DNA of 35,257 nucleotides from Nautiliaceae bacterium (GTDB lineage Bacteria; Campylobacterota; Campylobacteria; Campylobacterales; Nautiliaceae). A program made the position numbers and the translations under genes. The notes below the pieces were generated by a model, which was not told the origin of the DNA, ran no database searches, and saw nothing but the letters and a program-made list of their open reading frames with translations. The stretch's first letter is position 1. The number at the start of each line of letters is the position of its first letter. Location of the stretch: contig JALWNI010000142.1 of assembly GCA_027083695.1 (NCBI GenBank), positions 1 to 35,257 on the forward strand, written 5' to 3'. Shown here in pieces: positions 6,186 to 23,569 of this stretch.

Positions 6186-6528
6186 TTTAAAAGCTCTTCT
6201 TGAAGAAGCTATAAATAAAAAAGATTATAAAAAAGCTCTAAAAATAATCAATGAGCTTATAGCTTCTCCTAAATCAGTTAATGCGGAAGAAATTGATGGT
6301 ATCTTTTTTAAAGATATAAAAGATATTGTAAAATCAAAAGAAGATTTAGAAAATATTTTATTATCAACAAAAGTATTGTTTGAAAAAAAAGAAGAGTTAC
6401 TTGAATTTTTTGAGATGCTTTTGAAATATGGATTTAAAGAAAATGCAATAAGTTATTTTGAAGACTTGGTTTCCCAAATTGATGATATTGAGATAATTGA
6501 TGGATTTAATTCATTACTTACAAAATGA
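6160..6528 (+). CDS. Hypothetical alpha-helical protein upstream of murE
   Basis: Overlaps both neighbours in a tight operon; no recognised domain. Confidence 0.6.
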   Translation: MNLRNIHFDLKALLEEAINKKDYKKALKIINELIASPKSVNAEEIDGIFFKDIKDIVKSKEDLENILLSTKVLFEKKEELLEFFEMLLKYGFKENAISYFEDLVSQIDDIEIIDGFNSLLTK

Positions 6529-7723
6529 TTTAATTACAGACAACACTTCTAAATTATCACCAGATAAAATTTTTTTAAAAACCTTTCAAAATGCAAAATA
6601 TGCAAAAGATATTAAAAATTTTATAACCCCAAAAGAGCTTTTAAAAGCTCTTAAACTCACAACTAAATTTATTGGAATCACAGGTACAAACGGTAAAACA
6701 ACGACTGCATTTGTGCTTTCATATCTTTTAAAAGAGCTTGGGTTTACCGTGGCAACACAGGGAACTGAGGGATTTTATTATAATTTAGAAAAAAAAGAAT
6801 CAAAGACACTCACAACACCTCCGATATTTACTACCATAAAAAGAGCATTTGAATATAAACCTGATTTTTATATTATGGAAGTAAGCTCTCATGCGATAGC
6901 CCAGCAAAGAATTGAAGGGATTGAATTTTTTGCTAAATTATTTACCTCTTTTTCGCAGGACCATCTTGATTTTCACAAAAGCATGGAAGAATATAAAAAG
7001 GTTAAAGAGTCTTTTTTTCAGGATGAGGCGGTAAAAATAGTGAATGGAAAATTGAAAATTGAGAATGGAGCATGGAATATAGTTAATATTGGCGGATATG
7101 ATTTTAAAATAAATGCTAAAAGTTTATATGTGTTGGAAAATCCTATTGTTGAAAATATTCCGATGGCTGGTGAATTTAATAAAATGAATTTTTCATTGGC
7201 CTTAAAAACTGCTGAAATTTTCACAAATTCTCCATTCTCCATTCTTAATTCTTCATTAAAAAATTTTAAAGGTGTTCCCGGCAGAATGGAGATAGTTTCT
7301 AAAAATCCTTTAATTATTATAGATTTTGCCCATACACCTGATGGAATTGAAAATATCTTAAAAAGTATTAAGGGCAAAAAAATAGTGGTTTTTGGTGCAG
7401 GAGGAGATAGAGACAGAGAGAAAAGATCTTTAATGGGAAAAATGGCAAGTGAAAATGCTGATTTCGTGATACTTACAAATGATAATCCAAGATGTGAAAA
7501 TGAAGAACAGATTTTAAACGATATTAAAAAAGGTCTTATAAATAATAATTATCTGATTATTCCTGATAGAAAAGAAGCAATAAAAAAAGGTATTGATCTT
7601 GCTATTAAAGAAAATGCTGCTCTTTTAGTTTTGGGAAAAGGTGATGAGGAATATATTGAAAGATGCAAAGAAAAAATCCCTTTTAGCGACAGGGATGTTA
7701 TTCTTGCTCTTTTAAACTCTTAA
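6500..7723 (+). CDS. murE: UDP-N-acetylmuramyl-tripeptide synthetase
   Basis: GITGTNGKTTTAFVLSYLLKELG; MEVSSHAIAQQRIEGIEF; FKGVPGRMEIV; DFAHTPDGIENIL; TNDNPRCENEEQIL. Confidence 0.95.
   Translation: MDLIHYLQNDLITDNTSKLSPDKIFLKTFQNAKYAKDIKNFITPKELLKALKLTTKFIGITGTNGKTTTAFVLSYLLKELGFTVATQGTEGFYYNLEKKESKTLTTPPIFTTIKRAFEYKPDFYIMEVSSHAIAQQRIEGIEFFAKLFTSFSQDHLDFHKSMEEYKKVKESFFQDEAVKIVNGKLKIENGAWNIVNIGGYDFKINAKSLYVLENPIVENIPMAGEFNKMNFSLALKTAEIFTNSPFSILNSSLKNFKGVPGRMEIVSKNPLIIIDFAHTPDGIENILKSIKGKKIVVFGAGGDRDREKRSLMGKMASENADFVILTNDNPRCENEEQILNDIKKGLINNNYLIIPDRKEAIKKGIDLAIKENAALLVLGKGDEEYIERCKEKIPFSDRDVILALLNS
7044..7078 (+). repeat. Heptamer tandem repeat (ATKGARA)x5 inside murE, left arm
   Basis: ATGGAAA ATTGAAA ATTGAGA ATGGAGC ATGGAAT. 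Confidence 0.75.
7229..7256 (-). repeat. Inverted heptamer tandem repeat inside murE, right arm
   Basis: TCTCCAT TCTCCAT TCTTAAT TCTTCAT, the reverse complement family of the left arm. Confidence 0.75.
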
Positions 7724-15895: not shown

Positions 15896-17923
<2,028 letters not shown>

Positions 17924-17928
17924 ATAAT

Positions 17929-18016
17929 TATATGGGAGGATGAGTATATGAGTTTATGGGATTTAAAAATTTATAAAATATCAACTCATTCACCCATTTA
18001 CCCATCTTCTCATATA
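17929..18016 (+). repeat. Element A: inverted pair of octamer-type repeats with a 23-nt AT-rich spacer
   Basis: Left TATATGGGAGGATGAGTATATGAGTTTATGGG, right ACTCATTCACCCATTTACCCATCTTCTCATATA; outer ends align position by position. Confidence 0.85.
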
Positions 18017-18031
18017 CTATTAAAAACATGA
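17948..18031 (+). CDS. 27-aa leader ORF formed by element A, stop overlapping the FliJ-like start
   Basis: GGGAGG then ATG at 17948; MSLWDLKIYKISTHSPIYPSSHILLKT*; ATGA overlap with 18028. Confidence 0.5.
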   Translation: MSLWDLKIYKISTHSPIYPSSHILLKT

Positions 18032-18450
18032 AAACAAAATTTGATTCGGTTTTGAAAGTAAAAAAAAACGAAGTTGAAAAGATTGAAAGAAATATTCAAA
18101 AAATAAATGTTTCAATAAATATGTTAAAAGAAAAAATTAAAAAATTAAATGATAAACTCTCTTTACTTTCTTTCCCTAAAAATGGGAGTTTTAGCGAATT
18201 CAATCAATATAAATTAATGCAAAATATTTTAATTGACGAAATAGATAATCTGGAAAATCAGATAAATGTACTTGAAAACCGCAAAAATGAGCTTTTTAAA
18301 GAGTATAAAAAAGCAAATATTGAGTATGAAAAAATAAAATATCTCCAAGCAGAAGAGATAAAAAAGCTGATTAAAAAACAAAAACAAAAAGAGAATATCC
18401 AAATGGATGAAATTGCAATTCTTTTAAGGAATAAAAATGAATCCAACTAA
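18028..18450 (+). CDS. FliJ-like coiled-coil protein
   Basis: Heptad-rich helical protein directly after purA, the arrangement I recall for the FliJ-like gene in Helicobacter. Confidence 0.6.
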   Translation: MKTKFDSVLKVKKNEVEKIERNIQKINVSINMLKEKIKKLNDKLSLLSFPKNGSFSEFNQYKLMQNILIDEIDNLENQINVLENRKNELFKEYKKANIEYEKIKYLQAEEIKKLIKKQKQKENIQMDEIAILLRNKNESN

Positions 18451-18877
18451 AATATATCTGACACAGACCGATACGACCGTAGGATTTTTGTCACAGGATT
18501 ATAAAAAATTAAACAAGATAAAAAAAAGACCTTTTAATAAAAAAATTTTGATAGAAGTTGATAGTTTAAATACTTTAAAAAAATTTTCAAGAATTCCTAA
18601 AAGATTCAAAAAACAAGTTAGAAGAGCAAAAAAAACAACTTTTATTTACCCAAAAGGAGAATCATTTAGAGTGGTAAAAGATGAAAAACATTTGGAATTT
18701 TTGAAAAAATTCAAATGGATGTATTCGACTTCTGCAAATTTAACCGGGCAAAAATTCGATAAAGAGTGGGCCATTTCCAAAGCGGATGTGGTTGTTGAAG
18801 GGAAAGAGGGGCTTTTTGAAGGAGAAGCTTCAAAAATTTACAAAATAAACAATTATAAAATAAAGAAGATAAGATGA
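18437..18877 (+). CDS. Sua5/YrdC/TsaC-like protein
   Basis: IYLTQTDTTVGFLSQD...LNKIKKRPFNKKIL ... YSTSANLTGQKFD. Confidence 0.8.
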   Translation: MNPTKIYLTQTDTTVGFLSQDYKKLNKIKKRPFNKKILIEVDSLNTLKKFSRIPKRFKKQVRRAKKTTFIYPKGESFRVVKDEKHLEFLKKFKWMYSTSANLTGQKFDKEWAISKADVVVEGKEGLFEGEASKIYKINNYKIKKIR

Positions 18878-19425
18878 TAATTAACTCAAAACTTTCAGCT
18901 TCGAATCACGCATTTTCCCATTCACCCATCCACCCATTCACCCATCCACTCATCCACCTTTTAAAAAAAATCCTTATCCCTTTTGCCATCTTCTTCATTG
19001 CTTTTTTTATCATCGGCTGTACTACAAAAATTACACCGGTTTTTGTAACAATTAAATCTCCAAAAATCAAAATATCAGATGAGGGTTTTTTAAAAGAAGG
19101 ATTTGGATATAAAGAGATTATAATATATAAAGCTGGAAATGTTCCGGTTAAATTTTTGTTAAAACAAAATCAGATATGTGTGAATAAAAAATGTTTTAAT
19201 AAATATTTATTTATAAAACACTATTTTAAAGGGTATAAAAAAAATTTTTTTGATAAAATTCTATCTAAAAAGCCTTTGTCACTTAAAAATATACAAAAAA
19301 TACCAGAAGGATTTATACAAAAAACGCAAAACATTACCTATATAGTTAAAAAAAACAGTGTTTTATTTAAAGACAAAAAAAAGCATATTATTATTTTTAT
19401 TAAATATTTAAAGGAGAAAGGATGA
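18874..19425 (+). CDS. Predicted lipoprotein with repeat-encoded N-terminal extension
   Basis: Lipobox FIIGC after KKILIPFAIFFIAFF; preceded by [14 protein letters not shown] encoded by repeat B. Confidence 0.6.
   Translation: MIINSKLSASNHAFSHSPIHPFTHPLIHLLKKILIPFAIFFIAFFIIGCTTKITPVFVTIKSPKIKISDEGFLKEGFGYKEIIIYKAGNVPVKFLLKQNQICVNKKCFNKYLFIKHYFKGYKKNFFDKILSKKPLSLKNIQKIPEGFIQKTQNITYIVKKNSVLFKDKKKHIIIFIKYLKEKG
18915..18958 (-). repeat. Element B: solo octamer repeat array inside the 5' end of the lipoprotein ORF
   Basis: TTCCCATTCACCCATCCACCCATTCACCCATCCACTCATCCACC. Confidence 0.85.
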
Positions 19426-20234: not shown

Positions 20235-22003
20235 TGTGTGGAATAGTAGGGTGTATTGGAATAAATGATCCAGTTAAGTATCTTATAGAAGGGCTCAAAG
20301 AGCTTGAATACAGAGGCTATGATAGTGCCGGTATTGCCGTAATGGATGAAGAGGATTTAAAAATAATAAAGGCTGTTGGAAAACTTAAAAACCTTGAAGA
20401 TAAAGTAAAAAAGGTAATATTTAAAAATCCTTTTTCAGGTATAGGACATACGAGATGGGCCACACACGGGAAGCCGACAGAGCTTAACGCTCATCCTCAT
20501 AAAGGGAAGTTTAGTGCGGTGGTGCATAACGGTATTATTGAAAACTATCAGGAGATTAAAGATAAACTTCAAAAAGAAGGAGTTGATTTTATATCCCAGA
20601 CGGATACCGAGGTTATAGTAAAGCTTTTTGAATATTATTATGAGGGGGATGCATTTAAGGCATTTAAGAGAGTGCTTGATGAGATTGACGGTGCTTATGC
20701 AGTGCTTCTTATTACAAAAAAAGAGCCTAAAAAGATATTTTTTGCCAAAAAAGGTTCACCTTTAATAGTGGCTAAAAACAATAAAGAGATCTATTTTGCT
20801 TCATCTGATGCACCTCTTATCGGATATGCAAACAGTGCACATTATTTAGAAGACGGGGAATTTGGATGGGTGGATAATGAAATTCATCTTTTTAATGAAA
20901 ATAAAGAGATAATCCCCGCATTCAAACCTCTTCCTTCAAATAAAGAATCGGCAAAAAAAGGCGGATTTAGATTTTATATGGAAAAAGAGATTTATGAGCA
21001 GTTTGACGTTTTAAAAGAAAACACCCTTGGGAGAAATACAAAAGATGGGATTAAATTCGATGAGCTTGATAGGGAATTTTTTGATGGAATTAACAATATT
21101 ATAATTTCAGCATGCGGTACAAGCTATCATGCGGGACTTGTGGGTAAATATCTGATTGAAAGAAATGCGAAAATAAGAGTCGATGTGGAAGTTGCAAGTG
21201 AGCTTAGATACAGAGACCCTCTTCTTACAAAAGACACTCTTTTTGTCGTGATATCACAAAGCGGGGAGACGGCGGATACTCTTGAAACGCTTAAAATGGC
21301 AAAAAAAGCAGGGCTGAAAACCCTTGCGCTTTGTAATGTAGACAACTCTTCAATCGTAAGGGAAGCGGATAAAACAATCTTACTTAGAGCCGGGATAGAA
21401 AAAGGTGTGGCTTCTACAAAAGCGTTTGCTACACAGGTGATGACTCTTTGGATGTTTGCAAATTATCTTGGAGATAAAAACGAATATGATGCCATTAATG
21501 AAGCTATTGAAGTTACAAAAGTAGACGCTTCAATCCATGAAAAGATAAAAAGACTCTCAAAAAGATATCTTCACGGACATGGATTTTTCTTTATCGGAAG
21601 GGATATTTTCTATCCTCTTGCGCTTGAAGGTGCATTGAAGCTAAAAGAGATAAGCTACATCCACGCCGAAGGCTATCCGGCAGGAGAGATGAAACACGGA
21701 CCAATCGCACTTGCAGACCCCGAGCTTTTCGTAGTCGCACTTTTATCTAAAAACATACTTTTTGAAAAAACAAAATCAAACATTGAAGAGCTTGTAGCAA
21801 GAGATGCCACAACGCTTACAATTTCAAGCGAATATATCGAAATGACAGATGATTTCGTAAAAATCAGTGAAGCAAACCATCCGATGGTGGAATTTTTTGA
21901 AATGATGGTAATTACACAGCTTCTTGCTATGGAAGTGGCAATAAGAATGGGCAATGATGTCGATATGCCAAGAAACTTGGCTAAATCGGTTACGGTGGAG
22001 TAG
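20234..22003 (+). CDS. glmS: Glutamine-fructose-6-phosphate aminotransferase
   Basis: MCGIVGCIG; HTRWATHGKPTELNAHPH; canonical end MPRNLAKSVTVE*. Confidence 0.98.
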   Translation: MCGIVGCIGINDPVKYLIEGLKELEYRGYDSAGIAVMDEEDLKIIKAVGKLKNLEDKVKKVIFKNPFSGIGHTRWATHGKPTELNAHPHKGKFSAVVHNGIIENYQEIKDKLQKEGVDFISQTDTEVIVKLFEYYYEGDAFKAFKRVLDEIDGAYAVLLITKKEPKKIFFAKKGSPLIVAKNNKEIYFASSDAPLIGYANSAHYLEDGEFGWVDNEIHLFNENKEIIPAFKPLPSNKESAKKGGFRFYMEKEIYEQFDVLKENTLGRNTKDGIKFDELDREFFDGINNIIISACGTSYHAGLVGKYLIERNAKIRVDVEVASELRYRDPLLTKDTLFVVISQSGETADTLETLKMAKKAGLKTLALCNVDNSSIVREADKTILLRAGIEKGVASTKAFATQVMTLWMFANYLGDKNEYDAINEAIEVTKVDASIHEKIKRLSKRYLHGHGFFFIGRDIFYPLALEGALKLKEISYIHAEGYPAGEMKHGPIALADPELFVVALLSKNILFEKTKSNIEELVARDATTLTISSEYIEMTDDFVKISEANHPMVEFFEMMVITQLLAMEVAIRMGNDVDMPRNLAKSVTVE

Positions 22004-22004
22004 A

Positions 22005-22106
22005 CGGGTAAATGAGTAGATGGGTGAATGAGTGAATGAGTAAATGGGTGAATGGGTGAATGAGTAAATGAGAAAATGGGTAAATGAGTAGATGAGGAAA
22101 TGGATA
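22005..22106 (+). repeat. Element C: octamer repeat array (TGGGTGAA/TGAGTAAA types) directly after the glmS stop
   Basis: About 12 degenerate units, e.g. ATGGGTGAATGAGTGAATGAGTAAATGGGTGAATGGGTGAATGAGTAAATG. Confidence 0.9.
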
Positions 22107-22131
22107 AAAGAATAAGATGAGTGGGAAAGTA

Positions 22132-22500
22132 ATGAGGACACACAAAGATTTAGATATTTGGAAACTTGGAATCGAATTGGTTGAAAATATTTATAAATTG
22201 TGTGAAGTTTTTCCGTTGGAAGAAAAATTCGGTATTGTTTCCCAAATAAAAAGGGCCGCCGTTTCCATACCTTCAAATATTGCAGAAGGCAGTGCGAGAA
22301 ATTCCAAAAAGGAATTTATTCAATTTTGCTATATTTCATTAGGCTCTTTATCAGAAATTGAAACTCAACTAATTATATCCAACAGATTAAAATTTATTTC
22401 GAATGAAGATTTAGAAAAAAACATATTAACGATAGAAACACTAAGAAAAAAACTGTTGAATTTTATCAAATATCTCAAAAGGAAAGCTTATGAAACATAA
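22132..22500 (+). CDS. Four-helix-bundle protein of the 23S rRNA intervening-sequence (S23/IVP) family
   Basis: [77 protein letters not shown] signature. Confidence 0.93.
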
Positions 22501-23569
22501 TAACTTATCAACCCATCCACCCATTCACTCATCCACCCATCCACTTATATTAGTCACCGGCGGTGCCGGATACATCGGCAGTCATACCCTTATTGAATTA
22601 GAGAAGGCAGGATTTGATTTTTTAGTGCTTGATAATCTTTCTAATTCAAGTGAGGAAGCTATCAGAAGGGTTGAGAAGATTATAAATAAAAAAATTCCTT
22701 TTATTAAAGGCGATATAAGAGATAAAAATCTTTTAAAAGAGGTTTTTAAAGAAAATAAAATTGACAGCGTAATTCATTTTGCCGGGCTTAAAGCGGTGGG
22801 TGAATCGGTAGAAAAGCCGCTTATTTATTATGAAAACAATGTATGCGGTACAAATACGCTTCTTGAAGTTATGAAAGAATTCGGTGTCAAAAAGTTTGTA
22901 TTCAGCTCATCTGCGACAGTTTATGGCGAGCCGGATAAAATGCCGGTAACTGAGGATATGCAAACGGGAATCGGGATAACAAATCCTTATGGCAGAAGCA
23001 AATATATGATAGAAGAGATATTAAAAGATTTGTTTATTAGTGATAATTCATGGAAAATTGCAATTTTAAGATATTTTAATCCGGTAGGTGCACATGAGAG
23101 CGGTATTATAGGAGAAGACCCGGAAGGCATTCCAAATAACCTTATGCCGTTTATCACTCAAGTAGCTGTCGGGAAGCTTCCTAAACTTAGAGTATTTGGA
23201 GGGGATTATCCTACGCATGACGGAACGGGCGTTAGGGATTATATACATGTAATGGATTTGGCAAATGCGCATGTAAAGGCTCTTGAATATCTAAATAACA
23301 ATGATTTAAATGAGCCTTTAATAGTAAATCTAGGTACCGGTCAGGGATACAGCGTGCTTGATATGGTAAAAGCGTTTGAGAGGGCAAGCGGAGTAAGAAT
23401 CCCTTATGATATAGTTGACAGAAGGCCCGGTGATATTGCCAAAATATACGCAAATCCAAAAAAAGCCAAAGAGCTTTTAGGCTGGGAAGCTAAAAGAGGG
23501 ATTGATGAAATGTGTGAAAGTGCATGGAAATGGCAAAATCTTAATCCTAAGGGGTATAAGGGTGAGTAG
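22490..23569 (+). CDS. galE: UDP-glucose 4-epimerase with repeat-encoded N-terminal extension
   Basis: [63 protein letters not shown]. Confidence 0.96.
22507..22545 (-). repeat. Element D: octamer array in opposite orientation to C, inside the 5' end of galE
   Basis: ATCAACCCATCCACCCATTCACTCATCCACCCATCCACT; complementary to 22015-22053 at 32 of 39 positions by hand. Confidence 0.9.

Follow-up and report, generated by a model that had tools for sequence, protein, structure and literature searches.

A gene-less facing-repeat insert in the purA-fliJ overlap of a Nautiliaceae bacterium and the putative leader frame that crosses it

The junction between purA and fliJ in a Nautiliaceae metagenome-assembled genome (G000) raises two questions: what kind of element is the small repeat-bounded insert (Element A) that separates the two genes, and how is the flagellar gene translated behind it? 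An earlier note on this DNA had proposed a MITE-like element, emptied of its gene, that had become a device for translational coupling. We analyzed the 35,257-nt stretch that carries the junction (the window) and the corresponding loci of its named relatives, which are also Nautiliaceae metagenome-assembled genomes.

Layout and history of the purA-fliJ junction

Element A occupies 104 nt between purA (16682..17923, forward strand; Pfam PF00709, 3.3e-171) and fliJ (18028..18450, forward strand; PF02050 FliJ, 3.7e-14). The left arm (17919..17960, forward strand) is an array of about five degenerate units of the G-strand octamer TGRGTRRA (TATA TGGGAGGA TGAGTATA TGAGTTTA TGGG), and the right arm (17980..18018, reverse strand) is a C-strand array. 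Compared with its description in the earlier note, the left arm extends further and takes in the stop codon of purA (GGTAAATA), a TAA at 17921-17923 within the first repeat unit. A scan of both strands of the 35 kb window for the tandem unit TGRGTRRA, with a score threshold of 14, identified six arrays and nothing else at or above the threshold. Two of the six are the arms of Element A, the left one degenerate (score 21) and the right one scoring 30. The arms pair over about 34 nt as tandem arrays rather than as defined ends, and together they are predicted to form an RNA hairpin (17929..18016, forward strand; -26.8 kcal/mol, z -3.50) that none of 200 dinucleotide shuffles equaled. Buried in this stem is a Shine-Dalgarno (SD) sequence, GGGAGG (17934..17939, forward strand), followed by an ATG at 17948. 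This ATG opens a leader open reading frame (ORF) of 27 codons (17948..18031, forward strand; MSLWDLKIYKISTHSPIYPSSHILLKT and a stop) that reads through the right arm in a stop-free frame and ends with a TGA (18029-18031) overlapping the fliJ ATG at 18028. Sequence, coordinates and ORF agree with the first description of the locus, as does the assignment of the two facing arms to one octamer family. Also as proposed, Element A has no gene and belongs to a wider repeat family, sharing its unit with a gene-bearing element at 21998-22545; its insertion site is empty in sister species.

The ancestral junction reads AG-ATGA, with the purA TGA overlapping the fliJ ATG, and is empty in three species of the genus (G003, G004 and G007) and in most of the family. 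Among the relatives compared, only G000 and one sister (G002) carry Element A, which sits exactly between the purA AAG and the fliJ ATG. The empty (AATAAG-ATGAAAAC) and filled junctions revealed no target duplication flanking the insert. This comparison, which the earlier note had suggested as a check, shows that Element A is a real insertion common to two sister species only and that it landed exactly in the purA/fliJ overlap in the ancestor of the G000 species and its sister. From the ATGA sequence we infer tight termination-reinitiation coupling as the ancestral state. The locus is a minimal natural experiment in two species, in which an operon survived insertion into an ATGA overlap. Searching 21 genomes for the core of Element A (ATGGGATTTAAAAATTTATAAA, up to 3 mismatches) returned exact matches in the two orthologous copies only; the remainder were at chance level, so that these genomes contain no multi-copy family with this core. 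In another genus (g3), G009 and G013 carry unrelated repeat arrays at the purA-fliJ junction (L041 and L045, upstream of fliJ), and the fliJ start codons in G009/G013 are GTG/TTG. Judging from these sequences, the junction may be a recurrent target.

Translation signals and the coupling of purA to fliJ

The start of fliJ is set by its relatives: the first residues (M-K-T-K-F) are invariant among eight of them, and the overlap with purA fixes the ATG in genomes with an empty junction. With an SD energy of +3.0 kcal/mol, the weakest among the 37 genes tested in the window, fliJ indeed has no SD of its own, as the earlier note had remarked. The leader SD, at -10.7, is among the strongest, and that of the G002 leader is -5.5. 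In published reporter work, reinitiation drops steeply as genes lie further apart and all but disappears at about 20-38 nt (PMC10666635); thus, an insert of 104 nt would sever the ancestral coupling if nothing bridged it. A point against such bridging is that the gap between the purA stop and the leader ATG (24 nt) exceeds what direct reinitiation can efficiently span; ribosomes must then enter the leader through its own SD. In folding predictions, this SD is 0.5% unpaired in the free RNA versus 75% with a ribosome at the purA stop.

Our best reading of these signals, and one that we consider probable, is that the leader frame couples purA to fliJ. The insertion would have placed about 104 nt and an RNA stem in front of a gene without a ribosome-binding site, while bringing in its left arm a strong SD and ATG and in its right arm a sequence free of stops in the leader frame, so that a short frame could cross the stem and stop on the fliJ ATG. 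A ribosome finishing purA would open the foot of the stem and free the leader SD; translation of the leader would then melt the stem and hand the ribosome to the fliJ start. Coupling would in this way persist as a two-step relay, with a leader ORF that most likely restores what the insertion had broken. The earlier proposal that the element had become a coupling device holds for its components, an SD-less fliJ and a leader with a strong SD that ends at the fliJ ATG. Because the ancestral ATGA would already have given coupling, however, these components are better read as restoring it.

The sister species provides a second version of the same arrangement. The orthologous leader of G002 (L032; MGLWDLKIYKLLTHTPIPNSPICCE and a stop) stops 1 nt before fliJ rather than on it, and the distance from leader ATG to fliJ ATG is 79 nt versus 80 nt in G000, with a different phase relative to fliJ. 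In this single genome pair, 6 of 50 nt (12%) changed in the segment from the SD to the spacer versus 31.7% at purA fourfold sites (P = 0.0011), and 14 of 44 changed from the right arm to fliJ, which is the neutral rate (Fisher P = 0.024). The differences within the leader change amino acids; thus, selection on the peptide itself is not apparent. Further, the G002 hairpin folds no better than shuffled sequences (z -0.47). With the start half conserved and the stem not, what has been kept is the translation start rather than the hairpin.

A leader frame could also arise without a function, because a right arm with no stops in that frame supplies through-frames almost for free. In simulated random facing pairs, 48% had a left-arm ATG whose frame ended within 8 nt of the next ATG. 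Element A could then be neutral debris, one of the many repeat arrays spreading behind stop codons in this genus, with a leader frame that is an automatic by-product of stop-free C-strand repeats and with fliJ translated independently of the leader by SD-less initiation at an A/T-rich site. We regard this as unlikely, although it is the most serious of the alternatives. The start region of fliJ is A/T-rich and 75% unpaired, making SD-independent initiation possible, and around 30 solo arrays in G000 follow stop codons but have no leader. Another gene-less pair of G000 (contig C58) speaks against coupling as well, for it has a through-frame though its downstream gene has an SD of its own. The frame alone is, therefore, unsurprising. 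Its combination with an SD is not, since a through-frame and an SD-like tetramer occurred together in only 3.9% of the simulated pairs. Neutral debris is also at odds with an SD/start half conserved beyond neutral expectation between G000 and G002, and with a sister species that would keep its coupling via a different phase.

The same hairpin could instead be a processing site, an IVS-like substrate of RNase III at which the purA-fliJ message is cut and the two genes are uncoupled, in the manner of the S23p-type intervening sequences (IVS) of 23S rRNA. The long stem (z -3.5) and the S23/IVP genes of gene-bearing relatives are consistent with such a role, given that rRNA IVS are excised by RNase III at the stem of their inverted ends (PMC4990558). 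Yet G002 kept the leader with a stem that does not exceed shuffles, the arm expected to covary drifts at the neutral rate, and the site lies between purA and fliJ rather than in 23S rRNA. A cut would, moreover, leave fliJ without ribosome entry unless the leader loads it, and we judge RNA processing to be quite improbable. Rfam had no credible match for Element A; all were below the gathering score and to miRNA models, as expected of any long stem. We give almost no credence to an intrinsic terminator or a promoter island between purA and fliJ. A stem does separate the genes, and positions 17989-18018 match a promoter at 9 of 12 positions, but the region contains no terminator-like site (a stem followed by a T run) and its 3 promoter-like matches compare with 2.7 expected. 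Coupling through the leader frame accordingly stays our preferred reading of the junction.

Gene-bearing relatives and the class of the insert

The term MITE implies transposase-driven copies with target duplications. Element A is like MITEs in that it is short and gene-less, has inverted ends and is present or absent between sister genomes, and to that extent the label given to it earlier is apt. The resolved junction, however, has no target duplication, and the sole gene found between facing arms of the TGRGTRRA unit belongs to PF05635; its product is a four-helix-bundle protein of the S23/IVP type rather than a transposase. Two defining features of MITEs, the target duplication and the transposase parent, are thus missing. 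Also unlike MITEs, the element has arrays in place of defined terminal inverted repeats, and neighbouring copies differ in unit.

The gene-bearing relative lies 4 kb downstream of Element A and is built from the same octamer. Its left arm (21998..22115, forward strand; identified in the array scan) follows glmS, and its right arm (22503..22545, reverse strand) is translated as the N-terminus of a downstream epimerase, whose start at 22490 overlaps the stop of the gene between the arms. That gene (22117..22500, forward strand) encodes a four-helix-bundle protein of the 23S_rRNA_IVP (S23p) family (PF05635, 6.6e-38) with a match to PDB 2gsc (1.2e-27). The glmS-epimerase site is empty in G005 and G006, where the epimerase starts with MILVTGG right after the glmS stop; by comparison, the epimerase of the filled site has gained a repeat-encoded N-terminus, given as 25 residues. 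At the same site, G002 and G004 carry an IVP gene with a different 7-mer arm unit.

We surveyed 26 IVP loci from G000 and its relatives. The left and right arms of a locus were mutually complementary in 22 of the 26, beating 200 shuffles, which is the limit of the test. Arm pairs from the same locus had a median score of 39 versus 16 for arms paired across different IVP loci, so the unit tends to be peculiar to the element. The gene behind the IVP gene begins 3-13 nt ahead of the last base of the IVP stop in 20 of the 26 loci and runs on beyond it, and in most of these the right arm is read as its N-terminus. The gene-bearing elements thus seem to pass ribosomes on in a similar way, which favours the coupling reading of Element A. 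Nine of the 26 loci lie at what we take, from the flanking protein sequence, to be one emrA-emrB-like junction, and the loci are, therefore, not all independent. S23/IVP genes recur at this junction in many Campylobacterota (L091-L094, L096-L098, L104 and L106), but the arm units are not the same from genus to genus, and L098 retains the gene while having lost its arms. In these bacteria, then, PF05635 genes usually lie between facing arrays whose repeat unit is particular to the element, and the downstream gene begins over the IVP stop and reads on through the right arm.

Element A has the layout of the IVP loci, with an upstream stop, a start inside the left arm and a frame whose stop overlaps the downstream start; it does not have the PF05635 gene. 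Part of its leader, the codons WDLKIY (17957..17974, forward strand), resembles the N-terminus of IVP proteins (D-L-K-V-W), the best leader 10-mer scoring 3.8 bits and ranking 33rd among the 70456 positions of a six-frame scan of the window. The resemblance is suggestive of a start left over from an S23/IVP gene, in which case Element A would be an internal-deletion derivative of a gene-bearing element. The best explanation of the insert is that it is a gene-less member of a family whose inserts consist of a degenerate 7- or 8-base repeat arranged as two facing arrays. Of wider interest is the translation-transparent layout that it appears to have in common with its gene-bearing relatives. We are evenly divided on a broader reading, in which such inserts form a widespread class with Element A as its minimal, gene-less form. 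Each would consist of facing arrays whose 7-8-base unit is specific to the element, enclosing either an S23/IVP gene or no gene at all. The G-strand arm would close the upstream gene and give an SD and a start, the frame would end on the downstream start, and the stop-free C-strand arm would be translated, often as a new N-terminus. If this is true, such inserts can become established in operons with tight coupling and not shut them down.

Class 1 integrons provide the best functional parallel, and S23p IVS elements and short-repeat arrays the best structural ones. In integrons, ribosomes for SD-less cassettes are recruited by ORF-11 of the attI1 site and by short ORFs within attC stem-loops, and these ORFs also prevent the stem from closing (PMC8876359). 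As in the mechanism proposed here, an SD-equipped short ORF in the recombination site of a mobile element opens a stem-loop and feeds an SD-less gene by termination-reinitiation; unlike integrons, Element A has no integrase or attC core sites, and its frame comes from facing tandem-repeat arms and would restore a coupling that preceded the insertion. The S23p/IVP IVS of 23S rRNA, such as that of Coxiella, are also small inserts whose complementary ends form a stem and whose gene-bearing form carries an S23/IVP (PF05635) gene, and they are regarded as selfish, with an unknown mechanism of mobility (PMC4990558). They reside in rRNA helices, whereas the inserts described here lie between protein genes in operons and end in facing tandem-repeat arrays, and Element A is gene-less. 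The intergenic TAACTGA heptamer arrays of Beggiatoaceae, Cyanobacteria and Bacteroidetes have stops in all frames of one strand and none on the other and occupy short intergenic spaces adjoining starts without a ribosome-binding site (PMC4679880). Their unit is different, however, the arrays are direct rather than facing pairs (one indirect repeat is reported), and neither a leader ORF nor an S23/IVP gene is described. In the Nostoc trnL intron, the P6b stem forms by pairing between two arrays of a degenerate 7-mer that face each other, although within a group I intron and with no coding role (PMC4476775). In open-access text, we found no report tying S23/IVP genes to flanking short-repeat or facing arrays, which does not in itself prove novelty. 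For decades, S23/IVP genes have been familiar as passengers of 23S rRNA for which, to our knowledge, neither a function nor a means of mobility has been described. Here, members of the family are found between self-matched facing arrays at operon junctions that are empty in sister species, in an architecture that would keep downstream translation going. Its insertion, spread and function thus become testable in mRNA rather than rRNA.

Other repeat arrays in the genus

The second gene-less facing pair of G000 (L068, positions 2043-2117 of contig C58) precedes a glutaredoxin-like gene and has a predicted hairpin with a z of -7.0 and a through-frame of 26 codons. Across the genus, this junction is empty in G004, carries very different octamer pairs in G000 and G005, mainly a left array in G002 and a pair with another 7-base unit in G006, a pattern that points to a hot spot. 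The array survey of G000 draws on a whole-genome pattern search and 20 sequence stretches. Octamer arrays occur at around 30 other places in G000, mostly solo, beginning at an upstream stop codon or shortly after it and with the G strand as the sense strand. The solo arrays are often mosaics in which TGRGTRRA is combined with two 7-mers, one GGAAGTA-like and the other TTTTGAG-like. Genome-wide matches to the octamer pattern range from 1 to 126 across the genus. Nearly all variation in the octamer consists of A/G transitions at three positions. As a lead to this transition bias, we considered adenine mutagenesis of the kind that operates in diversity-generating retroelements, on the ground that Avd is a fold relative.

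Two further arrays lie within coding sequence in the window. A lone C-strand octamer array (18906-18958) is translated in the N-terminal, signal-peptide region of a lipoprotein-like gene (18874-19425); it is absent in G003 and G007, and G002 has a different short C-strand repeat in its place. Inside an ORF at 6497-7723, facing heptamer-like arrays (approximately AATTGAGAATGG and ATTCTCCATTCTTAATT) with 153 nt between them span positions 7032-7268 and constitute a facing-array element of a different unit.
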